Below, piece after piece: positions 6,663-63,953 of a stretch of 64,000 nucleotides of DNA. Made by a program: the position numbers and the translations under genes. A model generated the notes under the pieces. It did no database searches. It was not told the DNA's origin and saw only the letters and a program-made list of their open reading frames with translations. The stretch is from Asterochloris sp. CNOR1 (Eukaryota > Chlorophyta > Trebouxiophyceae > Trebouxiales > Trebouxiaceae): positions 4,213,001 to 4,277,000 of the forward strand of contig OZ017748.1 of NCBI GenBank assembly GCA_963969365.1. Reading direction: 5' to 3'. Each line of letters opens with the position of its first letter. Position 1 is the stretch's first letter.

Positions 6663-6663
6663 T

Positions 6664-18005: not shown

Positions 18006-20930
18006 ATGGCAAACCGTTTGCAGGATCCGCCTTCGGATCTGAGGGATGATGCATCCACCTCGAGTGAAGCGGGGCACCCCAGCGATTTTGATGCTGCAGC
18101 TGACATGGTGGCAGTCCTGGCATCAGGAACCAGCCTTACCGATGGCCTCAAGCTGGAGCTGTATGGCCTGTACAAGCAGGCCATGTGTGGGCCATGCTGC
18201 AGCGGCAAGCCAGCTTTCTGGGACCGCAAGGGCAGGGCCAAGTGGTCAGGCAATGCTCATGTCCTGCTGCTCTGCACATCGCTCAAGCACAATAACTGTC
18301 GAAACAGTTTTGCACCTCATGTGAATATTGAAGGCCTCTCACGTCTCGAGTTGAGCAACATGTTGCTGTGGCAGCTCAGGTGCAGCTCAGGGATGGCATT
18401 TGAGTGGCAGGGATGACCGTCTCCCGCAATGCACTCTGCACTGACTGGAGTCCCAACCTGTGTTGGCAGGTCTGCCTGGGACAAATTGGGGAACCTGTCG
18501 CCAGAGGCAGCGAGGGAACAATATGTGGCCACCGTGAGGAGAGCAGTGCCTGAGTGGAGAAGCCAGGACGATGCAGAGGAGCGAGCACAACGGCCCAAGG
18601 CCGGGCAGCCCATGGGGCCGGTCATGAGCAGCCTGGCCCACAACACGGACGCAGCAGGCGGCACTGCGTCGGTGTGTGCCAGTTGGCCTCCTGCTCTACA
18701 TGGCATGTTGTCTGAGTGCAGACGGCCCATTCAGTGAAGTTGTGGCCTGCAGCAGACATGGCCGCGCCGGCGAGTGGTTGCTGGGCTGCAGGCCACAACC
18801 TGTCAGCGGCCCTCACTGCGCAGAGAGGACAGGCCATGCCCTGAGTCCCTGTCCCTGCAGCAGATGAGGGCTGCTGTGGTGGGGAGCCGGCTGCACACAT
18901 GCCGGCTTGTTGCCCATCTAGCTGGCTGCAGACAGCAACATGTGCCCCTGTAGTGCAGCAACCCTTCATCTGGCCCACAATAGGGATGCAGGAGCTGAAA
19001 CTGCGCCCGTGGGTGCTGGTCTCCGCCGCACCTTGTGGTGCAGGTTCTGATGAACGGCAATGCTCTGGGGGTTTGCACCCTGCAGTGCAGCAGGAGGCCA
19101 TGGCAGCGGGTGTTCGCTGCATAGGTGCCTGCAACTTTGGCGGTGCCCCTGGCTAGCCCAACAGCACAGACGCAGCACCGCTGCTCTGGTCGGTGCTGCT
19201 TGCTGCTCTCAGCAAACTCAGGACGGCGACCCCACAGCCTGCGCTCTCTTTTCTGGTTTTAGAAAGGCATGCAGGAGTCATCTAGGCATGGTAGGAGTCA
19301 TCCTGCTGCATGTGAAGCAGTGGCTGATGCAGCAAATGCAGGAAGGCCAGCCCGCAGCTGGCATGAAGATGCCATGGTGCCACATTGATAACCTGTGTGA
19401 GGTGCAGGTGGGCTGCAGCAGGGGAGGAGATCCCCCCCCCCCAGCTCAGCCTACCCCACAGCCTGCACCTCAAGCGTCTACCGCCGCTTCCCATGCAGCA
19501 TGATGACACATGCTGTGCCCTGCTGCAAGCTGTTGGCAGCCTTCCTGCATTTGCTTCGCCCACCACAGCTTCCCGTGCATATAAGCATGGTGACCCCTCT
19601 CATGCCCAGCTGCAGGATGTGGGCAGCCTGCATACGCTGGCGAGTGAGGGCGCGCTGGAACCACTGCGGCGCTGCTTGGCAGCAGGTGCAGACGTGAATG
19701 AGCGGGATGCTGAGGGGTGCACCGCTCTGCACTGGGCTGCTGACCGAGGACACCTACAAGTCAGTGCAACGCCCTCCGCCCTCTGATTCAACTGCTGTGC
19801 AGCCTCTCCTGCAGACTATGCAGGGCCGCACAGCTCAGCAGTGAACTGCAGACACAGAGGCAACCTTTGGCAGGCTAAGGGGATGTCTTCAAGTTGCTGC
19901 TGTGCAGGGCCACACAGCTGGACCACCGGCCTGCTTGAACAGGACACCTGCAGGTCTGTGCAGGCCCTCGCCTGCTCTCTCTGAAGATTTGGCTGTGCAC
20001 AGCCGGCGGCTCGATTGTTGCATGTGCAGCCTCTCCTGCAGATTGTGCAGCACGCTACATCTCAGTCAGTGGCCTGCTGGTCAAGGCCACCTGCAGGTCA
20101 ACTCGGGGTGCTTTCTGTAATGTGTTGTTGCTGTGCACAGCTCGTCCCTGTGCCACTGACGGAGGTCGCTTCCAAATCAGGCCCGATGTGACAGGCGCTT
20201 TGGTTGCGTGCAACTGCCTGCAGCTGAGAGCATGGCTGCAGCGTACAATGCAACAGCCGCTGGCAAATGACGCTGGTCTTGCACACAGAGGAAGGAGCGA
20301 CTTGCAGGTTGCCAGCTGTTCCTTGCGGCAGCAGCATCATGCCTTGGTCCCATGGCTATTCATAGCGCTCCATGCTTTGTTGCATGATGGGGCAATACAA
20401 GGCCATCGACAGACCAATCAAGTTGTTACCCATGCCTCAGACACAAGATACTTGATCTCTAAGTTTCTTGTCAGCTGCCTTCGTGGCTTGTCAATGGATG
20501 CAAGATGCCCAGATTGCGTTTGTGTCCCGCTCAGAGCTGTCATATGTCTGGCTGCACAGCAGTGCAAAGTACCTGCAGCTACCTGGCCCCTGACCTGCTT
20601 GTCAGCGCTCATAAAATCCGATAGTGATTGGGCGGCGCTAAATGCGTCAACCACTGTGATGCTCTGTCAAGTGCAGCCTCCTCATGGGCCTTTCTGCTGC
20701 TGCAGGCAGCTGAGGCATTGTGCGAGGCAGGCGCTGATGTGAACGCACGGGATGGTGATGGACAGACGCCCCTGCACTATGCAGCCCTGTGCGAGCAGCA
20801 GGCGATGTGCAGGTTCTTGTTAGGGCATGAGGCCAAGGCTAGCTGCCAAGACAGCTCCGGCCAGACAGCCCAAGACCTCGCGCCTGGCTCATGGACGTGC
20901 TGGCAGTCAGATCCTGAAGCCTCTCATTGA
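18006..20930 (+). CDS. ACBD6: Acyl-CoA-binding protein with ankyrin repeats (ACBD6 type)
   Basis: Four exons, 18006-18244, 18470-18671, 19616-19759 and 20706-20930, all phase-consistent, giving 269 residues (human ACBD6 is of similar size). Residues of about 43-117 form the acyl-CoA-binding domain: LKLELYGLYKQA, GKPAFWDRKGRAKWSAWD and the final REQYVATVRRAVPEW, with the Tyr and Lys residues that contact the CoA ligand. Two ankyrin repeats follow (GADVNERDAEGCTALHWAA, then GADVNARDGDGQTPLHYAA). By family the protein binds long-chain acyl-CoA esters in the cytosol and the repeats bind partner proteins. The intron after exon 3 carries degenerate copies of the exon 3 donor edge, and the intron before it carries a copy of the acceptor edge. 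Confidence 0.93.
19760..20110 (+). repeat. Donor-edge copies of ACBD6 exon 3
   Basis: The exon 3 end (GACCGAGGACACCTACAA then GT) recurs in decayed form at about 19935-19955 (aacaggacacctgcaggt) and 20075-20100 (aaggccacctgcaggt), each followed by intron-like sequence. An acceptor-edge copy lies at about 19520-19555, roughly 85 bp before the real exon 3. Confidence 0.6.
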
Positions 20931-21551
20931 CTTTCAAAGAGACCATTTCTGTCCCATGTCCTCAAACATGGTGCTGATGTCCTTTGTGCCACCATTGAAA
21001 AATGAGCTATTTGAACAATTGCCCAGTCCAGAGAGCGTCAGGACAGAAATGCAGTAGTCTCAAGGATGATGCTCTCATGGCACACTGTCATGATGCCACA
21101 AAGAGTGTCAACTCAACAATTGTGTCTCAATCAAGCCCCACCCTAGTCTGCTGCAGCCGCGATCCCGGCTTGTTACAGTGGCATGAGACTCACACATCTG
21201 AGGCTTCATAATCTGAAATTGAGCTTGCATCATGTGGCCTTTACCACATCAGCATTGACAGTTGCTGACAAGGTGTGAGGGACCTGTGCCGTTGCCGGCA
21301 TGCAATCAACTAAACCATCCAGGAGGCGAGCAGTGCCCGCCAAACAGGGCATAGCACAGACCATGCACCCATGTGCCCTTTGCTTGTCATGTCTGTCCAT
21401 ATGCAGCACCATGCCTGCGCTGTTGCAAGTTGTCACAACAGTGCAGACATGACGCTGCTGGCATCATTGATTGCCTGACACTTCTGTGCTCTCTACACAT
21501 GTGCTTACAATGTGCATTCGTGGTCATGGCTGGAGTGGCGCCGCACACAAC
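20931..21551. other. 3' flank of ACBD6, no gene seen
   Basis: No chainable exon or domain-like sequence was found between the ACBD6 stop and the minus-strand exon ending at 21552. Confidence 0.35.
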
Positions 21552-22010: not shown

Positions 22011-22038
22011 AGGCTCACTTTTCCATATAAAAAGTTAG

Positions 22039-24025: not shown

Positions 24026-24574
24026 CTACAAGCTAGGGCATTCATGTTGCTCAAGTGAAAATTGGGGGTCTTTCTTCATGTCCTTCACTAAGCGTTCGAG
24101 GAAGCGACCCCCACTCACGCGACCGTTCGCAACTGCTGCACTCCTCAGGTGAGCAACAACCCGAGAGTGGTCGTCCTGTAGCTGCTTGACTGCGCTCTGG
24201 AGTAGCCCAGTCTCCCGAGAGTGGTCTTGCTGAAGCTGCTTGACTTCGCTCTGGACTAGCGCTGCATCCCGAGAGTGGTCTTGCTGAAGCTGCTCGACTG
24301 CGCTCTGGAGTGGCACTGTGTCCCAAGAGCGTTCCTGCTGAAGCTGCTTGACTGCGCTCTGGAAGGGCATCGCCTCCCGAGAGTGGTCCTGCTGAAGCTG
24401 CTTGACTGCGCTCTGGAGTAGCATCGCCTCCCGCGAGTGGTCTTGCTGAAGCTGCTTGACTGCGCTCTTGAGTAGCACCATCTCCATCTTGCTCTGCCTC
24501 TGCCTGAGAAGGCTGACGAGCAGGGAGATGAGCAGCAGCACCCAGGCATAGTCTGCAGGCAATTGGGAGAGCAT
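24026..24574 (-). CDS. Membrane-anchored coiled-coil protein with 18-residue repeats
   Basis: 182 residues, single open frame from ATG at 24574. Residues 9-24 are a hydrophobic anchor (YAWVLLLISLLVSLL), followed by basic residues, so the N-terminus is inserted in a membrane. Residues of about 32-145 are six tandem copies of an 18-residue unit (consensus LLQSAVKQLQQDHSREAM), encoded by 54-bp DNA repeats. The spacing of Leu and Val suggests an amphipathic helix or coiled coil. The C-terminus is charged (RFLERLVKDMKKDPQFSL). No homologous family is recognised. It could be a tether or spacer on an organelle membrane. Confidence 0.65.
   Translation of the reverse strand: MLSQLPADYAWVLLLISLLVSLLRQRQSKMEMVLLKSAVKQLQQDHSREAMLLQSAVKQLQQDHSREAMPFQSAVKQLQQERSWDTVPLQSAVEQLQQDHSRDAALVQSEVKQLQQDHSRETGLLQSAVKQLQDDHSRVVAHLRSAAVANGRVSGGRFLERLVKDMKKDPQFSLEQHECPSL
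24150..24480 (-). repeat. 54-bp coding minisatellite
   Basis: Six units of 54 bp within the coiled-coil gene, differing by a few substitutions each, with a core of GACTGCGCTCTGGAGTAGC (plus strand). Units differ mainly at the last four residues. Confidence 0.9.
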
Positions 24575-26217: not shown

Positions 26218-29200
26218 ATGGTCCAGGCACCTGAGGGCAGCGAGCCAGCGAGAAGCTGCCCCTTCAGTGGTAATAGACTGCCACCGGTGGCTGATCAGGG
26301 GCAGGCAGCTCATGATGCAGGTAGGACGTGACCTGAATCAGCGTGGGAGCATCCAACTTTTAGTTCGAGGCTCTGCCCCTATGCCCCTCTGTGCTTGTCA
26401 TCATGTGCACTGCTTCGAGAGAGAGCAGGGCTCCACTGACCATGTGATAACCCGCCTGCAACTTCAGGCATTGATGCCCCTTTGGATGCAACAGCAGAGG
26501 TCGTTGATGGCGCAGCAGTGCCTGGGCGTTGCCCCATGGGCTTTGCAGCAGGCAGTGCGCCAGCGGCAGGGCCTAGCAGCAGCAGTGGCCCCTCAGAAGA
26601 CACGCAGTACCCCACGGGTCCTGGAGTGGGGCAGTCTGGAGGCTGTCCTACGAGCTTTGGGGGTAGCGGCGCAACCAGCAGGTAGGCCCCAGTTTCACTT
26701 CAAACCCATGCAGGCAAGCTCTAACTTCACTCATGATTTGAGGCAGGCAAGCCTCCAGACACACAGCACAGAGGGTCATCACAGCAGAGTGGTGCCCAAA
26801 GGGCGTTGGGGGTGCGGCGCAACAGGGTGGCAAGCCTTGACGTCACTAAAAGGTCCAAATATGCAAGCCCACAGGACCGGTGGCTGTTGCAGTGGAGGGA
26901 CACCAGATGGGCTTTGGGGGCAGCGCCTTTGCAAGCAGGCGAGCCTGCGGCCACAGCTTGCTGTGACTTTGCCAGCCTAAATTGTGCCTGCAGGAGCCAG
27001 CCTGCTCAGAGCTGTGCGGTCAGGGCTACAATGTGTTGCTGCTCATGTCCAACTGGGGCAGCAGCGGCTTGCGGCATGGCAACCCTCGCAGTGCCTGCCA
27101 TTTGTGAAAGCTGTGCCTGCAGCGGTAGGCATGCGGCAGCTGTTGGACGTCGAACCTGCTTCTCTCAAGATCTCTGCAACCCCGACACAGCCGGCAAGCT
27201 GATTGCATGCAGCAGGCTCAACTACCCACTGTGCAGATAGGGGAGGACAGCTTTCTCCACATGTGCCCTCAGCATGCTGCAGCTGGCAAGCATGAATCGC
27301 AAAAGTAGGCAGCCTCCCACTGTGCGGGTCGTGCAGCGCAGCATTGCTGACACATTCACATAGCATAGCATTGCTGACACATTCACACAGCAGGATGCAG
27401 CCGGCAAGCTGACTGTGACAGGCACTGATCCTGCACTGTGCAGGTTTGGGGAGCACGGCATGCATGACACCTGACAAGCGTGATGCAGCCAGCAAGCAGA
27501 CTGCACAACAGACTTGGCTGCCCACCGTGTAGGTGCCGCAAAGCATGACACAGCCAACTCGCAGCCGTCAGATGTGCCCTCTACTCAGCAGGTCATGAAG
27601 CACAGCACCACTCACATGCGCTCTAAGTGAAGCACAGCCAGCAAGCTGACTACCCATCAGATTCGGCCTCCCACCATGCAAGTGGTGGAGCACCGCTGGT
27701 GCCCACACGTCAGTCATGACGCAGTCAACAAAGTGACCACAGCAAGCCCAGCTTCCTGCCATGCAGGTCTGGTGGGGCCAACAGCACCACACCAGATGGG
27801 GAGAGAGGTGGCCAGGACGCGCAGCGGAATGGGGCCAGCGCCGGGGGCAAATGCCCTTTCGGCTATGACCAGCCCAGTGGTCCCAAGATGACCCACCTGC
27901 ACTGCTCCCTGTGCAAGTCACTGCTGCACGACGTGGTGCTGCTGGGCTGCGGGTGCAGGTTCTGCAGGTCAGCAACATGGTACATACATCACATGAAAAG
28001 ATGTAAATGTATGAGCTGAGCTTGTGTGTGCTGGGAACCAGAAGGTGCTGCCTTTTATGTGTGCCCCTGCTGCATGATGTGGCTCAGCTCACCTCTGCTG
28101 CAGGCACAGTGTAGCGTGCCTCTTGGATGTCATTGCTTGCGCCGCCGGCTCAGCCAGCTGCAGCTACTGACTTGTGCAGTCCCTGCTTGGCTGCAGGCGC
28201 TGTGTGGCACATTTCAAGGAAAGCCCTGCCTGCGGCGCTGGCTGCAGTTCCTCACCTGTGCAGTCCACTTGTGCTGCAGGCACTGTGTGGCGCGCTTGCA
28301 GGACTGCCCTGTCTGCAGCACTGGCTGGGACAGCTTCACCTTATGACTTCTGCAGCCCCTGCTCTGCTGCAGGCACTGTGTGGCGCGCTTCCAGGACTGC
28401 CCTGTCTGCGGCGCTGACATCACGAGCCGGGAGCCTGATGCGGCGCTGCAAGGTGGGCAGCTCGTTCTGCTTGTTCTGTGCAGCGAGACATCGCTGCAAT
28501 GCACCACACAGCCTTCAGCCTCATTGCTTGTGGCCAGCGCCCACGCGGAGCTGCAAGGTGCGCACTTTGCTGTGCTTGGTCCTGTCACAGGGTGCCTGGA
28601 ATGTGGTTTGCCTCTGCATGGCGTCTTTCCTGGCCCTCATCTTTCCTGTCAGATTACAGCACAGTCAGACTTAGAGTTCCACTCCCCCTTCATTACCACC
28701 CTCATGCTGAAACGAGACATGCGTCAAGGGAAGCAGGCACTGCTCTGTACTGCACTGCGCGCGGTTGAGGGCAGCAGCGCAGCCATTGACGCTGCCCTGT
28801 AGCAGGCCTGCACCATCAAAAGGGTGATGCTGGGCACGGACAAGCACAAAGCTTGCACAGCCAGCAGGGAAGGCCATGGATGGTCACGCATGGACTGCAC
28901 CCCTTTATGCCCTGCACTTTGTTCCAGTGGGCAGGTCAGCAGCAGCAGCATCAGTGTATGGTGGTGTAGGGCAAGGGGCAGCCTTACATCTGGCCTTGCC
29001 TGTATGTGTATGCCTTACATCCTCTTCATGGCTGTGCAGGGTAGGTGGATGGCTACTTTGCTGCAGGCGAATTGTCAGCGAAGGGGGCGAGGTACAGTCT
29101 GCCTTTGCTATGGCTGGGTGTACCTGACATCCCCTTCCTTGGCCATGTAGGGCAGGTTGACGGCTTCATTGCGGCGCATGCCGGCAAGAGGTCGCTGCAG

Positions 29201-32200
29201 GAGCTGGACGACCCAAGGCTTGACCAGCAAGTGAGCGTGTGGGCAGCCTTTCTCCAGAGTGCCAAAGCTGCCCCTACAAAGTGGCTGGGACAGTTGCAGC
29301 TTTGTCCGGCTGGGATGGCCTTCTTCTACAGTGCTAGGCTGCCCTAGCAGCTGGGCAGGTCAGGTGCAGCTCTGGCCCGCGGGCAGCGTCCTAAGAGGCG
29401 CATGAGAGGCCTGTATAGTGCAATGCATCTTGGCTCATGATTGCAGCCCCATGGGGACAGTTGGCCATTGCAGCTGGCCCAGCTAGTTCAGGCCTTGGGG
29501 TTCTAGGCTATTTGACACCTATACCCTCAGCGACGCAGTCAGGCCACGTGGCTGCTGCAGCTGGCCCCCTTGGGCTATGGCTTCCCGCATGGGACTCACA
29601 CTCTCAGCGCTTCAATCACGTCCACTGGCCCCTTCCTGCAGGCGGGCGGCGACCTGACCGCCAGCCGGGCCACCTTCTTCCTGCAACTGGGCCTGCGCTC
29701 GGCGGCTGCCGGCAACTTCCCTGCTGCTCTGGACAGGTGACGTGCCTGCCAGCCTGCACAGCACCTGTACTTATGGGGGCCAGGGGCTGGAGCAGGCACC
29801 CTGAGTGGAGCCCTGAATGGGGTTGCAGTGCCCCCAGCCTGCTGTGCTCCTGGCTGCATTGGCATCAGACACCTTGCCGGAGAGTCCTGTGGCCAGGGGC
29901 GGAGCGCTTGGGCTGGTGCTGCTCTCTCAGGCAACCCTGCAAGGCTGCCCCACCAACTGCAGTGTGCAGCTGCAGTGTGCAGGACACCCACACTTCAGGG
30001 GCCAGGGGTTGGTGCCTGAGCTGGGCTGTTGCAGGTATCCCGCCCGGAGCAGGCTCACAGTGCCCCCAGCCTGTTGTGCCCTCGGCTGGACTGGCATCAG
30101 ACGCCTGCACAGAGCCTTCTGGCTGTATGCACTGTTGTTGGGGCATGACTGCTCTTGGGCAAACGAGTCTGCAGGCTGCATCAGCACCTGATGTAGCGCA
30201 TGCTGCTGGCTGATGGTGACTGGCATTGCACACCTTGACATATTCCCCCTGGTTTGAGGCGCAGGCCTTGCGCAGGGCTGCACTATGTCAGGCCCAAAGT
30301 GCCAGTCGCAGCACATGCGTCGGCTCCCTGAGGAAGTCGCGAGCGCATTGTGAGGCTGCACCACTGACTAGAGCTGTTGCTGCTGTCCGCAGGTTGGCAC
30401 AGTCCCGCCATGACCTGCTGTCGCAGGTGGAGGAGCAGGGGCAGACTGCAGAGCTGTGTTCTCAGGTGCGTCCTTGCAGCTGGGCCTGGTAGCACTGCAT
30501 TGCTTTGTCCCTCAGCAGTCTGCAGAGCTGTGTTTCCGAGTGCAGCCTCGCAGCTGGGCCTGTCAGCACTGCATCGGTTTGTCCCTCAGCAGTCCGCAGA
30601 GCCGTGTTTCCGAGTGCAGCCTCTCAACTGGGCCTGTCAGCACTGCATCGCTGTGTCCCTCAGCAGACCGCAGAGCCATGTTTCTGGGTGCATCCTCTCA
30701 ACTGGGCCTGTCAGCACTGCATCGCAATATCTCAAAAGCAGACTGCAGATCTTTGCTCCCACGTGCGTCCTCACACAATGGGGCCTGTTAGCACTGCACT
30801 GCTCGTCCCAGAGCAGGCTAACATAGTGGTCCTGCCAGCAGCGCAGCACACTGCACCCCGCAGTGGCAACATTGCACCGCATCATGTCACAGCAGGCATG
30901 GACTGTGGCAACACTGCACGGCAATTCACTCCTACAAGCACGTGCTATGGCAGCTTTGCATCACATTGCATCCCAGCAAGCACCTGCTGCGGGGCATCTT
31001 GCCCTAGCAGGCACCAGTTTGGGGCACCCTGCTGGAGGGCGCACCAATGAGCACCTGCTGTGGAGCACTCTGCCTATCAGGCACTTTGTTATAGGGCATC
31101 TCGCCTGCAGTGCATCATTCTGGCCCAGCTGGCATTTTCCATATTTCATCCTGCCGACATCGCATGCTGCGGCATGCATCTGCACAAGGGCATTGTGCTG
31201 GCAAAGCACCCTCCTGCTCCAGAGGAGCACTTGCCGGGCGGACACCCTGCCGGCAGCGCGTCCATCTTGCTGCGGAAGGCACTTGCTGTGGGGCCATGCC
31301 GCAGAACGAACAGTCCGTCGCCATGGCTGCGACGAATTACACTGGCAAGCTCTACGTGCACGGTCACCATCTCACCGAACGGGTCGGCATATCGTATGCA
31401 GCCGGACCCCCTGACTACATCGGCATGATTGCGAGCCGCCCGATGTCAGAAAACTGCAGTGGCATCCTGCTGGCAGCGTATCATTCTGCTTCGGCAGGCG
31501 CCTGCTGTGCAGCATCCTGCCGCCGGCTGCCAGTGGGGGACTGATGGCATGCCCCTTGCTCAGCGTTGTACCGCTGGCTGTAAGTGTCTGCTGCTGTGCT
31601 GCTGCTGCAGCTCGGCGCCGTCTGCGGTTCAGAGGGAGACTGCTGCCGCCGACTGGACGATCTGGCGGGGGCAGAGCAGCACTACCTGGCGGGCGTTGAG
31701 CATATGAAGAAGTGTGGAAGGTGGGCTCTGCTTTATCTTGCCATCTTTCTATGTGTGGCAGCACGAGGCAGCAGACAGACAGCATGACTAACCCTGGGGC
31801 AGCAGAGCAGCAACATCTGGCAGGCGCCTAGCACATGCAGACCTGTGAGAGGTGAGCAATGCATAGGGTCAACATTCTTCGCAAATGTTGCCGCAGGAAC
31901 ATGCAGCATGTAAACAACATGCATGGCTGGGTAGAGTAGAGTGCTATCTGGCAAGCGTTAAGCACATGCATGCTTGTGACAGGGGGCCCTTTGCGAACTT
32001 GATCTGGTCTGCTGCCACGCACTTGCAGACGTTGGTGCGTACCTGGCGGGCAGATGCTGCATGCATCCTGCTGCCTGCTTCTGCTAAGGGATGTCAAAAG
32101 ATGTCCGTCACGTCAGCGAACAACTTTTGCTTGCCAGCAACCAAGAGGTGCTGCAGGAGGCCACGCCGTGCTGTTGGCCATGAGCCTTCAGACGCATCCC

Positions 32201-42365: not shown

Positions 42366-44422
42366 ATGGCTCAGGAACATATGGGCGAGTGGCTGAGGAA
42401 GAACCGGGGCCCGGGTGAGCGGTTTCAGCAGTTGTGCATGTGTGCAGCCTGCCTCTGAGGCAGTGGACTGCCTAGCATGGGACCGTTGGTGTCAGAGGGC
42501 TGCCCAGCATGGCGCCCACTGCACCTGCACATAGATCCATGCCTGATACTGTGGGCACTGCATGCTGTAGGCATGCATGCCTGCGCAGGGATTTGCGAGT
42601 TGGCTGGTTGGCTACTGTGTGTGTGAGTGGGTCTGGTGGGGCCTTGCGTGCCCAGACCACCCATCAGCGTGCACTTACCAGTAAGGTGCGCGGGTCCTGC
42701 AGACCTACTGAAAGCTATGAAGCAGCTCGTCGGAGCCTTGTGGAGTCTGCTGGGTGGCCTCAGTGCCGCAGTGTGCAGTGCGCTGCTGAATGCTCCTACC
42801 GGTGAATGGCAACGGCTGTAGGGGGCCTTGAGCGCCAGCACACAGGCCTGCCACCACATCTTGCAAAAGCTCTGCTGCACTGGCGATAGTGGTGATGTCT
42901 GAGGCAGCTTGCGTCTTGCATCCATTTTCTGTTATCATTTACCTCCCCCGCCTTTGTTGCTGCAGATATGGCAGCGGCTGTGGCGGCTTGAGCGTCAAAC
43001 CACAAGGCCTGCCACCATCCTTGCTGCCTGTGCCGCTGCATTGAAAACTCTGCCTGTGCTGCTGCAGTGATGGTGGAGGTGCAGTGGCTAGATTTGGGGA
43101 GGCTGGGTTCCACACGCTTGTAGTATCCTTCACATTCACTGCCTGTGCTGAAGCATGCATGGTGGCGGCAGCAGCTGTGTGACCTGATGGCCGCCACCTC
43201 CCTGAGGTTAGCAGTGCCTGCACTGCTGCTGCAGTCATGACGGCGGCGCTCATGGGCGGCCTCGGCATGTACTACTTCATTAGGCGGGATGAACAGAGGC
43301 GCCACGAGGCGCAGCATCACGGCCACACAGGTGGGGACAGCCGCTGCTGGGCTGCCTGACATTTGCACTCTGACGTGGGCCTGCAAGTGACGCAATGATG
43401 CAAAGGACGGCCACACAGGTGGGGCCACCTGCCTGCTGGGCTGCCTCAACTTGTGTATTCCAGCGGGGGCTGCTGTGATGCAAAGCAGGCCACCCCACAC
43501 AGCGGCCTCCTGGGTTATCTGGACGGTACACTAGGTCCCAGAGGCCGGCGAAGGAGACGATGCACGATCTGTGAACAGGTGTGGAGGGGGCATGCTGCTG
43601 AGTTCCACGGGAGGGACAGCAGCAAGCCTGACCGGGGTAAGAGTAGCAGTTGCCTGGCTGCGTGAAGGCGTGCAGGCTGGCTTGGCGTTGCTCTGGCGGA
43701 TGAGATGCAGAGCATCAAGGCATCAACTGCCCATTACAAGCATGAATATTCACTGTTTGTTGCCGGCCGCATGCTGCTTGCTTCATGACAAGGGACACCC
43801 ACAGGGCTTGCCAGGGGTAGCAGCAGGGTCACGCATGTGTGCAGCCGACTGCTGCTGGTTTCAGGTGCGCGGGTGCTAGTTGGCTGCCCCCGGTGTTCCA
43901 GTTGTAGGCACCATTTAGGTGACAGTGCTGTAACATACCGGCCGCTGGCCCCTGGCTGCAGGGCAGCAGAGGGACCAGACCTGACGGGCTATTATGCTGC
44001 TGCCTAGCTGTACGGTCGCTGTCTTGCTCCGATGTCGATCCTGAAGACAGCCTGGCTGCGCAAAGCGTCCTGTGATTCACACTGTGATTCACTGTCATGG
44101 TCTCCAAAGCTCCAGAAGGTTTGATCCCTGGTTGTCCGTCTGGTGGGAGCCCTGCAGGCTGGCTTAGCGCACAGCGTGCTGGCTGCCCACCGGTGGCTGC
44201 CCGGCCCGGCTGGGGGCGCTGAGATCTGGTGCTGCCTAAGGCAGGCATGCCTGCAGGTGTGCAAGGGGCCTCCAAGATCCCATCAAGCATCAAGGGATGC
44301 AGCCTTTGATCAGTTGCACAATGTGTCTCACTTGTTGCAGAGTAAGCATTCATGAGCTGCTGCTGAGTGTGCTGCTGTGATGTGCAGGTGGGTCGGGCTC
44401 TGGGAGCCCCCAGCACCACTGA
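42366..44422 (+). CDS. 59-residue single-span membrane protein
   Basis: Three exons (42366-42414, 43235-43330, 44388-44422), all phase-consistent. The start sits in a strong initiation context (CCACCATGG). The sequence is MAQEHMGEWLRKNRGP, then one short hydrophobic span (VMTAALMGGLGMYYFI), then RRDEQRRHEAQHHGH and a Gly/Ser tail. Size and topology fit a small subunit of an organelle membrane complex, but no family is recognised. Both sides of exon 2 are surrounded by degenerate copies of its own edges. Confidence 0.55.
42950..43510 (+). repeat. Exon 2 edge ladders of the 59-residue protein gene
   Basis: Acceptor-edge copies (GCTGCAG followed by an ATG..GGCGGC-like stretch) lie near 42965, 43068 and 43150 before the real one at 43235. 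Donor-edge copies (GGCCACACAG / GTGGGG) lie near 43422 and 43500 after the real one at 43330. Period about 80-100 bp. Confidence 0.75.
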
Positions 44423-47900: not shown

Positions 47901-50900
47901 GCCCTGCAACGCAGCTGCCTAGGCTCAGAAGCAGCAGGACTGCATCAGGCGCAGGCCGCTGCGGGAGGGTGGCAGCAGCAGCAGCTCCTGCCGAACGCCC
48001 CTTGCATTAGGGTGTGCAGTAGCACTAGGGGCAAGCAGTAACCCTACTCCTCCTTGGCTGATGTGAAACCAAACGGGCCCTCGCTGATTGAGCTGAGGGA
48101 TATTCCGATGGCCATCCGATTGTTGTGCACCAGCAGACCCATGCAGTGAGCCCACTGATGCATGGGTCGTATGACACTGAACAAGCCTTGCTCACTGAGC
48201 TTACGGATGCAGTACATGGGTTGCGGAGACCTGTCAGTCTGCCTGTGGCTGCCAGCAGCATGATTGGCAATGCAGCGGCATGGGTGTTGGCAGGGGCTCC
48301 AGCAGGCCCAAGCAGACACCACAGACGCTTGGATGGTGTGACGCCAATCAGAGATTGCTGCCTGAGCTTAGGAACTTAGTATCAGGCTGCGGAGCCCTGT
48401 CAGCCTGCCTGTGGCTGCCAGCAGCATGACTGGCAATGCAGCAACATGGGTGTTGGCAAAAGGCCAGCAGTAGGGACCAGCCCTGCAATGGCTGGCACAG
48501 CAAGCCGACAGACTGGTGAGCAAGACATAGGTTTGCAAGGTAAGGCGGTTACTGACCGGCAGGGTCACGTGTAGGCAGCACCAGCACAGCCAGTGCATCC
48601 AACACCAGGCAGCAGCAGCAGGAATAAGCCAAGCTCATGGGCAATGTTCAGGGCTGTGACTGAGTTAGCACAAGACAGCAGCATGCAGGACACAGCCTTC
48701 ACTGACCTGCAGGGTTCAGGTGCCGCCAGCAGCAGCGTAGCCAGCGCCTCCAGGTGGTGGACCACCGGCAGCAACAGCAGGAACCAGCCCAGGCCTGTGG
48801 CAGCCGCAGGGGCAGCTGCTGCAGCTGCTGCGGTCTCCAGCATGGCAGCAGGCAGCAGGTGCCCCGCAAAACCCAGCGCGCAGGCGTCACCGAGGAGAGC
48901 TGAGCCGCCCAGCACTTCAGTGAGCTGGGCGTCAGATAGGGCGCTGGAGTTGGCCGGGGTGGGGAGTGTCAGCTGGGCCAGCGCTGCTGTCAGATTAGCC
49001 TGCATGAAAGAAGGATGAGATCTGCAGCAGAACAGGTGGCCTCGAGCATGTCAGCAGCTGCTGTGCTTCTGTTGACACTTCTGGGTTGTAGGCTGCTGAG
49101 TGTGAGGTGACTTCTGGGCACACCAGGTAGAGAATGTGCAAACAAGACAAAAGCAATGAGAAGTGGTACGAGTGAAGTGAAGGCATTTGATGGCCAACAG
49201 CAGAGCTGGCAAACAGCGCAGAAGCGACAGCAGACAGCAGAGCTGCATGCAGAACAGGCGGGGCTGCACTGACTGGCCACTGGGGCGTTGCAGTACCACA
49301 ATCGGCTATGCATAGCAAAATGGTGGTGCAGGGCTGGCCTGCTGTTCTTCGGGATAGAGAGCGCAAAAAAGTCCCGTCGCCCCAATGTTGATCACCCACT
49401 GGGGCGTTTCTAGGGCGGCAACTGCCTGCAGGCACCAATGATGAGCTCAAAAGACAAGCCGTGCAAAAGGGTCGTGCAGAAGGTCTGCTGTTGGCTGGCA
49501 ATCATAAACTGACAGAGCCGATTAGGTGCCTCACACTGCAAGGGAGGCGCTTGAAAAGACCCAGGGATGGAGCCCAGGATGTTTGTTTTTGCATTTATTT
49601 CAGCAAGGCAGGCATGAACGAGCGGGCACAGCAGCTCTGTCCATGCTTGCTGCTGCATGAGCCTTACATGTGAGCTCATGGGCTCCGCAGCAGAATGGAC
49701 AAGAGCCATGCAGCTGCAGGCCTCGGCAGCTCTGAGAGCAACCTTCACCCTGCAGGCAACTCAGCATTGGGCAGCTCGGGAGGCATGCTCTTGCTCATTT
49801 GTGCTACCATGACTAGCTAAGGTGATGCTAATGCATGCCCCAGAGCAACCACCTGCAGACTCAGTCTCCACTTTGGCGCAGAAGTTAGGCAACCATTTGC
49901 CTATGGCAGACGCAACTGTTGCCTTAAGCATGGAAAAGGTAGGCCGGCAGAGGGTATATCCTGACGTCACTTTGCTAGACCTAATGAGGAAAGGACATGC
50001 AGGATGCTATACTTTCCATCATACGAGGGCTCCTGCCAACTTGCCTGGGGGGGCAGCACAGTGCTGGAGTCCGCCAGCCCCAGCCATACGCTGTCTCCAG
50101 CCTGCTGACCAGGCTCATCTGCAATTGCACCATCCTGCCCAGCGGAAAAGTGCCCCAAGCGCAGCGGCACAAACCACACCGGCTGCTCAGCTGTCGCGTT
50201 GGCTTCGTCGCCGTATGCCAGGAAGCGCCGCTGGTGCAGGTACAGGCCGCTGTCTGGAGCCCCTTCTCTGCAGCAGACAGTGTGCCTGTGCTTAGAGGGC
50301 AGAGACAGATCAGAAGCAGGCCGATGCCGCCGCAGCTGCAGGCCACTGCCCCATGCACGCTGCCTGCAGCAGACAGGCGGGCTGTGATCGAGGGGTAGGG
50401 ACACAGCAGCAGCATGCCAATGCTGCTGCAGCTGCAGGCCGCTGCCTTGCACACCTTCCCCACACCAAGGACGCCTGATTTGAGTGGCAGGGACAGGGCC
50501 GGCAAGAGACAGCGCATGCCGCACGTGCTGACCGCAGCCTGGCTTGCCCTCATTGCAGCAGAGAGATTGTCTCAATGTGCAGCGTGGACACAGCACAAGG
50601 AAAGCTTCTGTTGAGCGCTGCTGCTGCAGCAGACAGCATGAAGTCAGTGTTGGCAGTGCACGAGGAAGAGGCACCGCGTGACTGCAGCTGCAGTCAGCTG
50701 CCTTGAGGCCCCTCCCTGCAACAGATGTGAGCGTGAGAGTGAGCAGGTTAACCCTGGCAGCTCAAAGCCCAAAGCTGCTGCGTGTGCCTAGGACTTCTAG
50801 CTCTGCTGCAGATGGGTTTTGCTGAAAGAGCGGACGAGACCTGGGGCTGCAGGCACGCTGTAGAAGCAAGACAAACTCAACTGCAGGTGTAGGCTGCCTC

Positions 50901-53900
50901 CAGCATCAGTCCTGCAGCACAGCACACATGGTTGCAACCTGCCCCTTTCCCTCCTGGAGCTGAGCAGTTCCTGCTGCAGCAGAACCTTTCTCTCGAGTGG
51001 AATTGACTCGGGATTAAGCTGTTGAGTGTAGGCTCGGGCAGGATGGCAGCAGAGGTCCAGGACTGCAGCAGCTGCAGGGCGCTGAAGATGAGACCACATC
51101 CCTCAGCCAGGACGGCAGAGCCAGAGGAGACAGATGCAGCTGGGATGCTAAAAGGACAATACAGTGCTTGCCACTTGCTTCAATGCTGCCAACAGGCCAA
51201 ATCGGTCACCAGGTTTTGCATGATCAAGGCAGATGGCCAAGCACCAACTCCCCCATCTTGATCCCAAATGAAGCACTTCATGTAGCATTTGACCAACCAC
51301 CTTTCAACTTATACCGAAGACTGCTCTGAGACCAGCCATGCAGTCCCCCAGAACCTCATGAAAACAACAGAATGTCACCTACCCGGGCTGGTCAGCTGAC
51401 ACTTGAACGAGGGGGTAGCCTGGCTCGTTTATCCAGGCGCTCAGTTGAGCCAGGATGCCGGCAGCCTGACCCTCAGCCAGCCAGGCCGTGGCGTTGCCTG
51501 GGAGGAGTGCAGGGGCACCCGCATTGCTGCTGCCAAACACGCTGAGCAGAGCTGCCAAAACGTCCTCCATGCTGGCGTTGCCAAGGGCGTGGGCTTGCAG
51601 CAGTGAACGCATCCCATCCTGCATGACAGGCAAGGGGAAGTGATTGTGAGTCCCAGCGCAGGCGCTCTAATACCACCAAGATCCCCTGTCAGTGCCCTGG
51701 ACAATCAGAGAAAGCTGCAATGGCACATGAGCCCAGTCTTGTGCCTGGGCAGGCTAATGACTAATACCTCAAAACTTGGATGATGAGTTATGGAAACAAC
51801 TCATGACCCCCCCAGAGATTTGGCCTCCACCAGCAGCTCACCCTGAAGGACCCCCTGGTGAATAGCATTCCAGAAGGCCCCCAGCATGTGCAGGCAGGCA
51901 CAGCTGTGCTGCGGCATCTGAGCCCTCTGCCTGGGCATTGACACTGAGTCCCCTCCACCAGCACCTCACCCTGACGGCCCCCTGGTGACCAGCATTCCAG
52001 AAGGCCGCCAGCATGTGCAGGCAGGCACAGCTGTGCTGCGGCATCCGAGCCCTCTGCCTTAACGCTGAGTCCCCCGGAGTCTCAGCCCCTCCACCGGCAG
52101 CTCACCCTGAAGGCCCCCTCGTGAGCAGCATCCCAGTAGGCCTCCAGCATCTGCAGGACAGCTGCCCCCTTGGAGTAGATGATCTCTCCCTTGGCTGAAA
52201 ACGGCGTCTCCCCGGCGCCCTCTGTGTCGGGGACGATGCTGGGCATGGGACTGCCGCCGTCCACTTGCAGGGCCAGCTCTCTGGGGCCTTCGTGAACTCC
52301 GATGGCCTGGCCTGCAGCAGTAGGACCCCAGTTGCTGGATGTCTAAGCCCCTCCCATGCACTGCTGTGGCCTGGCCTGCACTGGTGGTTGCTGGTCACAG
52401 CCTCATCCATCAAGCTGGTCCCAAGTGTCATCGGTCGGGACCCTGGCCGGCACAGCTACAGAGAGTAGTGCTACACCCAGAATTGAGCGATGCTGAGCAA
52501 GGCAGCAGCAGCCACCTTGTAAACTATGATGCCAAAGGCTACATGCAGCCTGTAGTCCGCGAAACCTGCCCTGAAGGTAGGTCCAGGCATTGAACAGTGG
52601 GCCATGGGGAGCACAGCAGCAATAGCACTTGGAGTCAAAAAGTCAAAGGCTCTGTGGACTCCACAAAAGCTGTCTTCAAGGTGGTCCCTGCCTGCAATGG
52701 TGGGCCATCCTGAGCAAGCAGCAGGAGCCATTATGCAGTCATGATGCCAAAGGCCTATGCAGTCCACAGGTAAAGACCGCAGGCAGGGATGTAGCTTGAG
52801 GGGAGATGGCCCTGCTGAACAGGCCTGGGCGGGCATGTCTGCGGCTGAAGATACCTACACTTGCTCCACAAACTTGACCACAGGCATGGACCCAGTGTGG
52901 CTTGAGGGGTATAATTTCTCACTGTTGCCAGCAGGCATGACCCCACCTTGTGGGGTGGTGGCCCTGCTAAACAGGGCCGGGGCAGGCATGTCTGGGAACG
53001 CTGCCGCCAGGCACTTGTACTCCACAAAGCTCGCCAGCGCCTCATTAACTGCAGGGCAGCAGGGGCCGTGGCACGTGTAGTGCTGCTGGTCACAGCTTTG
53101 CTGATGACCAGAGCAGGCGTGCACATGGTGATGTGTGCAAGTAGCACAATGAGCCTGTGCTTGTGGGGCATCACAAAAAGGACTCCTCATGTTCCACAAA
53201 TCAGATTGCTGGCAAGGGCGCCCCGCACGTGGTCAGTGGCAGCTTTGCTTCTGGCCAGTGCTCGGCCTTGCCAAGCTCATGCGCTGCTCTGCACCTTGTT
53301 CAGAAGACTGGGGCCTGCCAAGTGATGCAGAAGGGCAGGCTGGACTGCCAAGTTCAGGCAGACCTCAGCTCAGCGGATTGGTGCGCAGCTCAGGGATCAG
53401 TGCGCTGCCCACCTGCCACGTTTGACCAGTCCAAGCAGGTCACATAGTTTCCAAACCACTGGTGCCCCAGCTCATGGCACACAACATCAGCACTGCGCCA
53501 CCGGTTGTAAGCTGATGCCTGCAGGGCACACAGCTGATATGCTTATATGCATTGGGTGGGTGACACAACTCAACTTGTGTAAGCTCCTACCTTATTGACC
53601 AGCATGCGCTCCTCATCAAATTGCAGCAGACCCCAATGCTCAACTGCCCCCCTTTTTCCAGGTATGGCCACCATGTCCAACTTGGGCAGGGGCAGCCTGA
53701 CTCCTGTGTAATCCTCATAGAAGTCCGTGCCTGCCACAGCAGCCTGCAGCAAGTCATGGTGGGTTTTTTTGTCAGTCTGCCATCTCATGCATGTGCAGGC
53801 CTGCATTGCCTCAAGGTGTGTAGCTGCCGCTGCAGCCTGCATCAGGGCACAGCAGCCTTGGGATACACCTTGTCCGACTTGGACAGGGGGACAGCGCTTC

Positions 53901-56900
53901 CACTGCAATGCAGTCTCCTGAACAAATGCACTTTGGTGCCTGCTGCTGCAGCCTGCAGGGGGGCTTCTGCAGGTTTTGGCAGGTGCACATTTCCAGCCAA
54001 GCCTTGCTGGCAGCTCCAGCTGCCTCTGCAGGCATAAGACTACCCACAGGATCACTTTGAATGCTTTGGACCACCAGGCTGCCAGAACTGCTGGCCCTGT
54101 GGCCCTGAGACTGCCCACATGGTCACGTTTGTAGACCTTGAACTATTAGGCTGCCAGATATGCAGCGAGGGCTTAACCTGCGGAGCCAACTTCGCTGAGC
54201 CCTGCAGAAGCCTTTTGCTCTGTACTGTACCACACCTCTTCTGTCAGCCAGAGCGGAGCCCTGACACCTCAAGCTAACCCTCCAGCATATGCCAAGAACC
54301 TCACCTGTAGCGCCACCCCGAGCTGGCCCTGCAGTCCTGGGACTGCCCACATGGTGACGTTCATGCCGCTGGAGCTCTGCTGGGTGACACCTTCCAGGCG
54401 CCCAATTGTCACTGCCAGAAGGTAAGTCGACATGGGCGGCCCCATCTCGAACTGCACAAGCAGTAGGAAGTGAGCCAAAGGGGCACCGCTTCTGCACAGC
54501 AGTGCAGGAGACGCCGCACAGATGAGGTACAGAGGGGAAGACAGCACCCGCCTCCTGTGCAGCTGTGCAGGAGGCGCTGCGCAAGTCTGCTGCGATGGGA
54601 GATTCTGCACAAGTGAACGACAGAAGTGAATGAAATCTGCGCAGATCAGCTGCAGGGGAAAAGACAGCGCCGGCCTTTTGCGCAACTGCAGAGCAGAATC
54701 CGTGGAGATGAGCTACAGAGGGAAGCCACCGCCCGCCTTGTGTGCAATTGTGCAGAAGCATCTCAGCAAATGAGCTGTTGTAAAGGGAATGCAGATGGTG
54801 TAGCTCAGCTGCTTGGACCGTATGCAGGCACACTCCTATTGGATGCAGGCATGCACAGAAGCAGTTTGCAGGAACTGGTTAAAAGTAAAGCAAAATCTAA
54901 AACTTGTGATTATGATATCATAAAATTTTTGTGCAGGTGGGAAGGAGCAGCCATGCATATTCACGATGAGCAGGAGGCAGCCTGCAGGCCGGGGTGGCAG
55001 CAGTTACAGCGCTGGTCTCTTGCCTTCACACACATTGTTTAGGGTCCCATGGCATAGCACTGCACCAGCGCCTCCTGCAGGTGTGGTCACTTTTACAACA
55101 GGCCTGCGTCGAGCAGTACCCTCCTATCTAGCATGGATTAATGAACAGAGGTGCCCCCGAGTCTCCTGGAAAGTTTTCTGAGGGACTGAACCCAATGCAG
55201 CCTACCTGAGTCTCCTGCAGACCTTCCCCCAGGGGGCTGGGTCCAGTGCTGCTGGCAGCAGTGTTGGCCAGGGCCACTGCCCCTACTGGGTGGCTCAGGG
55301 TGAAGCTGAAGTTGGCTTTGTAGGCGGGCAGGTCAAAGCAGGGCAGGATGGCTCGTGCCCCGAACGTCTCGGTGCTGACCGTGATCAGCACCTGCCGCTG
55401 TGCTGCGGGCTGGCTGCCTGCCTCAGCTGGTGCCTCATCTGCTACTGGCTCGGGGCTGAATGGCAGGGACCTGCGCCAAGACATCATAAGAACTCATTTA
55501 GATCATGTACAGTGACTTCCAGGCCAAGGGCCTGCAGTTGGCTTGAGGCTGGATGGCAGGGACCTGCTCCAAGACATGAGACATGTTTTACCTCAGGTTC
55601 TAAGCGTTGACCCCAGGCCCCATTGGCTTGAGGCTGGATGTCAGGGACTTGCAAGTCTGCGCAACTACGCAGAGACAGGCAGTGTGCCAAGTCCAAGGGA
55701 CAGAGACGGATTGAAGTCTCACAGATCAGCAACACCTGCATTATCCCTTTTTGATGGTGACAAGGACGTCCTCAGTGTGTGGCTGAAGTTGCAACATCTG
55801 TTGTTCTGGGGGTTATCTCGAGGGTGCTCAGCTCCACAAGAGAAGCATGTTCGCTCACAAGCAGCAGCGGCGCTGCTGACTCTCACCTGCACAGGCCTGG
55901 GGCCCCGCCGCTGGCCAAGTCGCACAGGGTCGCGACATAGGTGAAGTTGATGGCGAGAGTGCTCCCAGCAGGGACGTCATTGCCCAGGTTCAGAACCATC
56001 AAGTCGGGGTCCACCTCTGGGGATGGCAGTGGTGCTGGCGGTGGGGCAGCGCCTCTCACTGCAGGCACTGAGGGAGGCGCCGGCCTGCAGGACAAGACAG
56101 GATGTCTGTGCATGGCAACCCCTTTGTCAAGAAAGCTGGCACCGTACAGATGAATGCTATGAGTACGAAAGGCTTGTGTAAAGCTGCTTGTGTAAAGCTG
56201 TTGTTAGGTGCGTTGTTAGTAACTTGTTTGAAGCGATCAGCCAGCTGTGCCCCTCACAGTGAGGACTGAGAGAGCGTACGCACTGCACTGATAAAAGAAG
56301 GTTGCAAGATCAGGGTGTCATCCATGCCACAAAGCACAGCTGCGAACCCTACCAAGGGTTGCCTGCCAGTGCACAAGCATGCAGCAGGAGCAGGACCAGC
56401 AGCAGCAAACTCTCACAGGCAGGCTGTGAGAGCTACAGGTGGCCCGAGCAGGGCTGCAGCAGCATGAAATGCAGTGAGATAGGCAAAACACTGATTCAGT
56501 CACGAGATAAACCCACTCCTGCTAGGCCTGACCTGCACTCACAGGCCCATGTGCTGCCTCATGCAGCACGTCCAAGAAAATGACAAGTCTGTCCAGCTCA
56601 AGTACCGGCAGTGCCTCCCGCAACACGCACCTGGCCGCCTGCAGCGTCTCACTGCAGCTGCGCGCTGAGCAGTCGGCCTCTGGACCGCACAGGCAGCTCT
56701 CCTGTGCGGGGGTGCTGGTGGTCTGCAGCAACAGAGCACCCGACAGTCAGGCACAGGCATGCTGGATGTGGGAACAGGCTGGGGGCAGCACAGCAGCGCT
56801 CCTGTTGGATGTGGACTGCTGGTCTCCAGCCACACAGCAGGCAGCAGTCAGGCACAGGCAGGCGGGATGTGGGCCAGGCCGACGGCAGCACAGCAGCGCC

Positions 56901-63200: not shown

Positions 63201-63953
63201 CCTCTCAGCCACTGACGCACGCAGACCACCTCTGCTTGCAGCTCTTTATATGGAATGTGGCACAGACTCACATGGCAACCAAGTTCTTTGGGACAGCCTG
63301 TCCACCACTGTGGCCGTCCCCACAAACTGCACGTGAGGCTGAGATGCATGTGTTTGACTGCTGTGGCATCCACACTGCGGCAAATTTCACATGTCAGGCT
63401 TTAAACTCCAGCTGAGCTGCAACTCTGTCATTTGCAACATGAGCTTTACTGAATTTCCTCCTTGCCGTGTTGGCCAAATTTTGCAAACTGGCCGCCTGTC
63501 TGGGAGCACTGATTGACCTCCTTGCAGCCACCCACAGCTACAAAATGCTCTGCAGATGCACCGATGTGAGCCAATTTCCTGGTCTGAGTGGCATGTCAGC
63601 CAATGTGAGCCTCGACCACCACGTGGTGCAGCTGTTCGATGACAATCAGTGCCAGAGCAGCCCTCTTGAGTTGGATTTCTTTCTCTCAGCTGAGCAGTGC
63701 CAGAAGAGCTCGACACCAGCGGTTCCCAGTCCAACAACTGATCCTAATGAGGTGAGCTGGGGATGCACCCCTTTGCCTAACCCATTGTAGGCCCTGCTGT
63801 GAGTGGCTCTGCAGTTGTGTCACATGGTGGAGGCATGCCTTACCTAAATGTTTGTCTTGCTGTATGCAGATATGTGAGTCCTTCTGCCTGCCTGACGGCT
63901 CTGGATTTGAAGTTGCTTCAGTCTCTGCCATTAAGATCTGCTCCAATGAGTGA
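60293..63953 (+). CDS. Secreted cysteine-rich protein of unknown function
   Basis: Nine phase-consistent exons (60293-60382, 60446-60600, 60882-61030, 61728-61917, 62303-62541, 62906-62941, 63242-63332, 63556-63751, 63870-63953), 409 residues. Residues 1-17 are a signal peptide (MKALAALITCLSVHTYA). The mature part has about 18 cysteines in scattered pairs (HSCGKHH, AGCDTCHKGD, ESFCLPDG) and a Thr/Pro/Ala linker (about 240-275) that is probably O-glycosylated. No membrane span or GPI signal follows, so it is likely released or wall-bound. The start of exon 2 (acceptor GGGGGAG) is the weakest junction. It is divergent from the M1 gene with 562 bp between the two starts, which must hold both promoters. 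No family is recognised. Confidence 0.78.
62140..62300 (+). repeat. Short degenerate repeats in an intron of the secreted protein gene
   Basis: Five units of about 28-40 bp built on GGCTGCCC.TCACAGCC.A..TGGGCT lie directly before the acceptor of exon 5 (62302). Confidence 0.65.

Follow-up and report, generated by a model that had tools for sequence, protein, structure and literature searches.

The window analysed here, a 64,000-nt stretch of the Asterochloris sp. CNOR1 genome, holds four genes in which we modelled 20 introns, with homology backing for most: ACBD6, an NCA1-like gene, PPP4R2 and an M1 aminopeptidase. Pfam matches back the gene models (PPP4R2 itself, and Ank in the exons flanking an ACBD6 intron), and the M1 aminopeptidase aligns with ERAP1 (E=4.6e-48, query 91-466), a span that supports M1 junctions 2 to 7. 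Introns in the window contain tandem arrays whose neighbouring units are similar in length, as in minisatellite-like repeats (TRF, shift spectrum), and two further arrays lie in open reading frames and serve as contrast cases (Table 1).

Table 1. Arrays and exon-edge copies in the window, with strand and supporting evidence
Position	Strand	Feature	Evidence
19760..20705	+	ACBD6 intron in ankyrin part; upstream-exon 3' edge and donor repeated in decayed copies starting at 19924, 20061, 20133	edge test score 23, control max 17; flanking exons Ank
24160..24478	-	54-bp array in open reading frame, contrast case	TRF; all counted shifts multiples of 3; presumed coding from open frame
27968..28372	+	NCA1-like intron 1; acceptor and RING-exon start copied three times upstream (28093, 28182, 28272), at about 90-bp spacing	score 46, control max 19
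28453..29150	+	NCA1-like intron 2; donor-edge copy 28545, acceptor-edge copy 29029	edge test
30441..30895	+	74-bp array that begins 25 nt within NCA1-like exon 5 and runs over donor 30465/30466 into intron 5	TRF 30441-30798, 4.8 copies; self-BLAST; edge test
31721..32405	+	NCA1-like intron 6; donor-edge copies 31807, 31944, acceptor-edge copy 32331	edge test
38866..39712	-	PPP4R2 intron 3 (39712-39014) with exon 4 (39013-38866); acceptor and exon start copied twice upstream (39138, 39246)	score 46, control max 15; self-BLAST 38689-39236; Pfam PPP4R2
41881..42092	-	42-bp array in open reading frame, contrast case	TRF; in-frame periods only; predicted exon 41865-42044; presumed coding
43235..43330	+	59-residue protein, predicted exon; donor-edge copy starting 43386	exon prediction; score 21, control max 15
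45687..46220	-	about 212-bp array across donor 46187, predicted M1 C-terminal exon	self-BLAST; exon prediction; score 26, control max 15; weak match to the ERAP1 C-terminal part, E=0.021
48127..48792	-	about 169-bp array across donor 48707, predicted M1 exon 10	self-BLAST; exon prediction; score 28, control max 19
50268..51382	-	M1 intron 8 (position of exon 9 set by eye); acceptor edge copied at 50376, 50467, 50565, 50725	score 25, control max 15
51619..52157	-	M1 intron 7; 127-bp array extending back into exon 7; two donor-edge copies, GT kept	TRF 51824-52157; score 44, control max 16
52312..52946	-	M1 intron 6; one copy of the donor edge (GT lost), one of the acceptor edge	edge test
53744..54304	-	M1 intron 3; donor edge repeated about 232 nt further on, acceptor edge repeated 93 and 207 nt ahead of it	edge test
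55471..55886	-	M1 intron 1; acceptor and exon 2 start repeated in two copies at about 93-bp spacing	score 32, control max 16; self-BLAST

The strong intron periods measured 74, 93, 110, 127, 136, 148, 176 and 232 bp, with some weaker ones outside that range, in agreement with the locus-specific periods of 74 to about 230 bp given in the first-pass annotation. In the two open-frame arrays every counted shift is divisible by three (54, 108, 162 and 216 in one; 42, 78, 120, 84, 45, 87, 36 and 129 in the other), whereas the intron periods are not so limited. Self-BLAST of the window found no repeats linking these genes, which upholds the earlier claim that the copies are not one transposon or introner family, and no inverted pairs at E<=1e-4.

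Whole-frame Pfam scans returned PPP4R2 as the sole match on both strands of 33.5-43.5 kb, no match on both strands of 43.5-49.5 and 60-64 kb, and one sub-threshold match only on the minus strand of 21-27.7 and 57-60 kb; they also took in the minus strand of 49-58 kb and the plus strand of 17.9-21.2 and 28-33.5 kb, and in 0-17 kb eight chosen ORFs were scanned. With Pfam coverage of this extent, a stretch with no modelled gene is not equivalent to a gene-free one. Rfam and tRNA searches (the latter with the bacterial code) gave no matches, and scans of viral_contigs that used the NCA1-like protein and the LINE ORF as queries yielded no relatives.

Exon-edge copies within introns

Each edge query, comprising 45 nt of exon and 15 nt of intron, was aligned to its own intron and compared with 1000 equal-length stretches from other introns. 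The test covered 38 edges of 19 of the 20 introns, the 72-nt M1_i4 being too short. At 15 of the 38 edges the own-intron match exceeded all 1000 controls and at 23 it failed to do so; reverse-complemented edges beat all controls in 1/38 cases and reversed edges in 0/38. All 15 passing matches sit in the intron half adjoining their own edge. With dinucleotide shuffling, the control that the first-pass annotation had proposed, an excess is likewise seen: against 200 shuffles, 15/38 edges reached p<0.05, nine of them at the minimum p, in a set of 38 that included M1_i4 and left out M1_i8.

Exon-edge copies in introns, which had been described for at least six genes, are real in five of the six named: ACBD6, the NCA1-like gene, PPP4R2, the M1 aminopeptidase and the gene for a 59-residue protein, whose donor edge at 43330 passes (p=0.001) and whose acceptor edge fails (p=0.08). 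The gene of the sixth, a secreted Cys-rich protein, was not located. The copied units had been said to span the splice junction with exon and intron bases on either side, and 14 of the 15 passing matches do cross it, yet intron interiors hold copies as often. Copies at both ends of an intron were also recovered, with both edges passing in 4 of the 19 tested introns (NCA1_i2, NCA1_i6, M1_i3 and M1_i6). ACBD6 carries copies only in its ankyrin part, the edge test finding none in the ACBP intron. Introns with copies tend to be longer than those without (708 vs 439 nt, p=0.034, but only p=0.064 when the untested 72-nt intron is removed). The copies found are edge fragments, with an exon part of up to about 90 nt; in listing them we ignored self-matches at shift 0, an artefact of the reference overlapping its target, and low-scoring rows may be chance.

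Nine further predicted exons, including that of the 59-residue protein, passed at 9/18 edges, a result that is not blind because these exons were picked from the prediction candidates once the self-BLAST arrays were known, the 59-residue donor copy having been seen by eye beforehand. The other 25 exon candidates, most of which are probably false or transposon exons, passed at 2/50 edges. The acceptor of M1 exon 9 passes in the modelled-gene test and fails in the 25-candidate test, most likely because the control pool of the latter includes its own intron.

It is extremely unlikely that these matches reflect an assembly artefact or chance similarity in low-complexity, CAG/TGC-rich sequence. In 17.5-64 kb CTGCAG and GCAGCA occur about 12-14 times more often than expected, which would favour such an origin, but the stretches from other introns have the same composition and yet lose, reversed edges never won, and the copies diverge from the edge by about 5-31%, which excludes duplicated reads or misjoins. 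As for the CTGCAG richness itself, derivation from copied acceptors was considered and rejected, since CTGCAGG and CCTGCAG occur equally often (16 each). Very unlikely, too, is intron creation of the Rogers type, in which an AGGT-bearing exon segment is tandemly duplicated and the copies would be relics of intron birth. The copies are indeed tandem and some edges have AG/GT, but that mechanism would leave the upstream exon end duplicated at the intron's 3' end, and the downstream exon start at its 5' end, in conflict with the own-edge position of 15/15 passing copies, and 14 of these also contain intron bases.

Copies at edges, in interiors and outside modelled genes

Local copies are as common in intron interiors (105/284 windows) as at exon edges (15/38; odds ratio 1.1, p=0.86). 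A sliding test gave the same picture, with copies at 17/52 junction positions and, in introns by distance, at 40/115, 34/98 and 32/103. We therefore reject junction enrichment; splice junctions are not special for the location of copies. Several introns have no interior copies (for example PPP4R2_i1, 0/21, and NCA1_i7, 0/12). In stretches without a modelled gene only 20/720 windows held local copies, against the 105/284 in introns, a comparison in which windows overlap, genes are few and the stretches are not proven gene-free.

These counts bear on the mechanism put forward in the first-pass annotation, whereby splice junctions or their surroundings set off duplication and introns extend outward from their exon edges. 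Local tandem duplication survives from that proposal, and the junction as its focus does not. Copies do occur at donor and acceptor edges alike (15/38 modelled and 9/18 further edges), and in Chlamydomonas reinhardtii and Volvox carteri, according to a survey of units of 1-50 bp, tandem repeats are densest in introns, then in CDS, and are commoner near intron-exon junctions (PMC3887541). Against it stand the lack of any excess at edges over interiors and the absence of a clear sign that introns were extended step by step: among the 12 edges with two or more copies, as counted from the copy alignments, the one closest to the exon is the most similar in only 7. We thus regard junction-focused growth as rather unlikely.

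Decay of the copies and a proposed model of intron growth

The extra copies decay, as had been claimed, and do so like non-coding DNA, with mismatches flat over codon positions (0.208/0.183/0.206; 18 nominal copies from 11 edges, some of which may be one copy picked up by neighbouring search windows). GT or AG is kept in 30 of the 37 copies that cover the site, where 66% would be expected from the rest of the copy (binomial p=0.035); among the further exons this count used 8 of the 9 passing edges, M1_e11 D being omitted as weak (score 14) and without junction crossing. Such retention, together with acceptor-like sites of a longer motif in intron interiors (10 sense vs 5 antisense), could indicate that selection maintains the copied splice sites as decoys or regulatory alternatives. 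We find this improbable, however, given that the GT/AG excess is small and of a kind that local alignment favours, that other positions decay evenly over codon positions, that the site is lost in some copies (M1_i6 D, one of M1_e14 D, M1_e12 A), and that interior donor-like sites show no sense bias (4 sense, 5 antisense). Cryptic splice sites among the copies are plausible from their sequence.

Intron growth is often ascribed to transposons. Many introns of the window seem, from their sequence, to have grown by repeated local duplication hidden by splicing, and we consider it probable that tandem duplication of roughly 70-230 bp is blind and frequent in genes, is kept where splicing hides it, and is followed by decay. 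Segments of this size would be duplicated repeatedly inside genes regardless of exon limits. When a duplication fell within an intron or over an intron-exon boundary, the mature mRNA would stay the same provided that the splice site nearest the exon body were used, and the extra copy, hidden by splicing, could mutate freely; a duplication within an exon would survive only with a length that is a multiple of three. The expected outcome would be introns made largely of decayed tandem copies that hold exon-edge fragments and old splice sites. We infer the duplication process, the neutral fate of the copies and the use of the exon-proximal site in genes that are themselves modelled by homology.

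Some results count against this explanation. With the exon frozen and the intron free to change, the exon part of a copy should match better than its intron part, and the two are close (770/950 = 0.81 vs 712/896 = 0.79, four intron self-match rows dropped). Furthermore, a uniform blind process should leave copies in gene-free DNA as well, and the 20/720 windows outside modelled genes run counter to this. Their scarcity there may reflect transcription-linked duplication or a faster transposon turnover of intergenic DNA. Along these lines, it is conceivable, though doubtful, that a process confined to genes, and perhaps tied to transcription or splicing, duplicates units of 70-230 bp often enough to be the main route of intron growth, with about two fifths of exon edges becoming tandem ladders built from old splice sites.

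If blind duplication hidden by splicing is the correct account, the length of an intron here can be taken to record its local tandem duplications, for which the exon edges serve as built-in markers. The difference between intron windows and those with no modelled gene makes gene-linked duplication testable, and the retained GT/AG sites raise the question of how splicing selects the right copy.

Relation to known systems

The phenomenon is a variant of known tandem-duplication and intron-repeat phenomena, new in its form; in the literature searched, where subscription journals were thinly covered, we found no description of intron growth by tandem exon-edge copies. A close parallel is the potato RdRp gene, which has a tandem duplication across an intron-exon boundary and an 83-bp duplication inside the intron (Ma et al. 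2016, PMC4974935). As there, a tandem copy with exon and intron bases lies over the splice site (14/15 matches), but the potato event yielded a new intron and an inserted exon in one gene, whereas here the process is recurrent, affects many introns and lengthens existing ones. Tandem duplication is also reported to give rise to new introns (Hellsten et al. 2011; Gao & Lynch 2009, as cited in PMC4974935), again locally and with the extra DNA spliced out; there the intron forms within an exon, unlike the present copies, which adjoin their own existing splice site.

The richness of intron windows relative to stretches without a modelled gene, which are not proven gene-free, recalls Chlamydomonas and Volvox, where tri- and hexanucleotide motifs dominate the CDS repeats. 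Compared with the repeats of that survey (PMC3887541), the units here are longer (about 70-230 bp), include exon edges and splice sites, have decayed strongly and do not favour edges. Introners, which are common in aquatic lineages, likewise affect many introns of one genome, but they share sequence across introns (PMC9860276), whereas in this one window similarity is seen within each intron only. The green alga Haematococcus lacustris also has abundant tandem repeats, its nuclear genome consisting of 47.3% repeats that are mostly short and tandem-organised; exon-edge copies in introns are not mentioned in the extracts of that account (PMC7617258). Finally, duplicated alternative exons comprise a whole exon with both splice sites and an open frame; the copies picked up here by the edge queries are edge fragments with flat decay over codon positions.

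Exon-edge copies within introns

Many exon edges, the exon ends at splice sites, recur as decayed tandem copies within neighboring introns. Each edge, taken as 45 exonic and 15 intronic nt, was aligned both with the intron that it borders and with 1000 control stretches of the same length from other introns. Of 38 edges from 19 introns, one 72-nt intron having been left out, 15 scored above all 1000 controls. The exon-edge copies reported in the first-pass annotation are real. Of the 15 matches, 14 cross the splice junction. The 15 come from 11 of the 19 introns, and the controls passed in 1/38 (reverse complement) and 0/38 (reversed edge) cases. When the number of controls was 300, in a preceding version of the test, 14/36 edges passed, with 1/36 for reverse complements and 4/40 for exon-interior windows. 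Dinucleotide shuffling, suggested in the first-pass annotation as a check, was also carried out: with 200 shuffles and a slightly different set of 38 edges, 15 reached p<0.05, nine of them at the minimum p. Self-BLAST of the window returned 34 repeat pairs, every one direct, and all pairs that lie entirely between 18 and 63 kb are local, with offsets of 93 to 858 bp.

The position of the copies bears on their origin. Intron birth by tandem duplication of an AGGT-bearing exon segment (the Rogers type) should leave copies at the opposite intron end, whereas all 15 passing matches sit in the intron half closest to their own edge. Introners, which are dispersed intron-generating elements, predict likeness between different introns; we found none within this window, in agreement with the earlier view that the copies are not a shared introner family.

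Junctions, intron interiors and the rest of the window

The first-pass annotation had further proposed that introns lengthen by repeated duplication across splice junctions, the copies being hidden by splicing and then decaying. Edges show no excess of the kind this predicts: a test similar in design to the edge test, run on 17 introns of at least 250 nt with 300 controls instead of 1000, found same-intron copies for 105 of 284 windows from intron interiors, against 15/38 edges (odds ratio 1.1, p=0.86). A sliding test found local copies in 17/52 junction windows, in 40/115, 34/98 and 32/103 intron windows grouped by distance from the junction, and in 14/59 exon windows. Splice junctions are not special; genes are. 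Only 20 of 720 windows contain a copy in stretches without a modeled gene; gene scans covered part of these stretches, in which a few ORFs and weakly predicted exons occur. The Fisher p of 1.5e-44 for introns versus these stretches overstates the evidence because windows half-overlap and the genes number four or five. Two initially unannotated stretches, 42.3-49.8 kb (33/180) and 57-60 kb (18/75), were later found to carry predicted exons of the M1 aminopeptidase or the 59-residue gene; their rates are not independent support because the gene assignment was made after the rates were known. Among extra exons proposed by a small coding and splice-site scan, 9/18 edges pass for the nine that we attributed to M1, PPP4R2 or the 59-residue protein, which were picked with arrays already known rather than blind. 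The remaining 25, located mainly in transposons or in DNA with no gene assignment, give 2/50.

The simplest account is that tandem duplication would be frequent within genes and that duplications would be retained where splicing conceals them. The junction-driven growth of the first-pass annotation is not needed. Copies may be rare in the 0.5-17.4 kb part because it is young, as the presence of a LINE and repeated elements suggests; alternatively, copy-poor stretches may reflect duplication tied to transcription. Frequent intragenic duplication has ingredients that are already known. A survey of plants and green algae reports that in Chlamydomonas and Volvox tandem-repeat density is highest in introns and greater near intron-exon junctions, but there the units reach 50 bp only (PMC3887541). 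Ma et al. describe one duplication spanning an intron-exon boundary in potato (PMC4974935), and the Haematococcus lacustris genome paper gives 47.3% repeats, short and tandem (PMC7617258). The literature searched yielded no description of the density, unit size and exon-edge inclusion seen here.

Form, decay and reading frame of the copies

Exon-bearing copies include 11 to ~90 nt of exon. The GT or AG is covered by 37 of 41 tabulated copies and retained in 30 of these 37, compared with 66% expected from identity elsewhere in the copy (p=0.035), a difference toward which local alignment is itself biased. Acceptor-like sites in intron interiors number 10 sense versus 5 antisense. Copy-versus-exon mismatches are flat across codon positions (0.208, 0.183, 0.206), as expected if change occurred in the copy and not in the exon. 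The similarity of exon parts (0.81) and intron parts (0.79, after dropping four intron self-match rows) barely differs, however, which points the other way. Introns with and without copies do not differ significantly in length once the 72-nt intron is removed, and we therefore count this comparison as evidence against the account by frequent tandem duplication.

In two arrays within open, putatively coding frames, all counted repeat shifts are multiples of three; intron repeat shifts fall in all three classes (138, 256 and 380 counts, with few arrays dominating). The in-frame-only shifts fit blind duplication followed by selection.

Gene models and neighboring repeated DNA

To judge by its gene content and splice sites, the window (57% GC) is eukaryotic DNA, probably green-algal. 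Gene models were drawn by eye and then checked by homology. The spliced M1 model matches Peptidase_M1 (1.7e-34) and Peptidase_M1_N (4.9e-15) in Pfam, and human ERAP1 aligns with query positions 91-466 (4.6e-48), spanning junctions 2 to 7 of seven. Exon 9, positioned by visual inspection, gave no match of its own in homology searches; its end (50041, minus) may be a GC-AG donor (CAG/GCAAGT) instead of GT. M1 likely reaches to ~46 kb, with a weak ERAP1 match for the C-terminal part at ~46.2-46.6 kb (E=0.021); the N-terminal exons placed at 56.5-59.6 kb are predicted. Pfam also matched the PPP4R2 model (4e-19), the ACBP domain (1.9e-23) and ankyrin repeats of ACBD6 and, just over the cut-off, a RING domain in the NCA1-like protein (1.9e-06), whose TPR match is sub-threshold. 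The latter we take to resemble Arabidopsis NCA1, and the ACBD6 label is likewise our assumption. Neither the NCA1-like protein nor the LINE ORF had relatives in the viral_contigs collection.

Features, arrays and copy rates in the window
Feature	Position	Strand	Details	Windows with copy
M1 aminopeptidase, spliced	56084-51383	minus	eight exons, 470 aa	
Acceptor and RING-exon start	NCA1-like intron 1		three copies	
74-bp array	starts 25 nt within NCA1-like exon 5			
127-bp array	M1 exon 7 into intron 7			
Acceptor and exon-4 start of PPP4R2	upstream of exon 4		two copies	
Open-frame array	24160-24478		shift divisible by three in 660/660 window counts	
Open-frame array	41881-42092		shift divisible by three in 193/193 window counts	
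LINE-type retrotransposon	12610-17364	minus	1150-aa ORF, endonuclease and reverse transcriptase domains	0/120
No modeled gene	0.5-12 kb			11/285
No modeled gene	21.3-23.5 kb			2/45
No modeled gene	24.9-27.4 kb			0/60
No modeled gene	33.6-38.4 kb		predicted PPP4R2 exon at end	3/120
No modeled gene	60.2-63.9 kb			4/90
Dispersed copies	1416-1759, 6666-7364, 12064-12750		three, 96-98% identical	
Fresh 86-bp tandem duplication	6576-6751		98%; beside or within middle dispersed copy	
ORF	10412-11215	plus	weak sub-threshold Trypsin_2 match (1.5e-4)	
Repeat pair	35503-36076, 36361-36914	minus (peptide)	77% identical, 858 bp apart	

The LINE ORF matches RVT_1 (2.3e-33) and Exo_endo_phos (4.5e-09) in Pfam and is adjoined by a 434-aa ORF without a Pfam match. 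The two members of the 77% pair encode a similar peptide that belongs to no Pfam family. Parts of 209-475 are similar to 23297-23522 (68%) and 36161-36301 (74%), and to judge by sequence the three are perhaps one dispersed element. The motif CTGCAG is over-represented ~13.6x in 17.5-64 kb and 6.6x in the first 17.5 kb.
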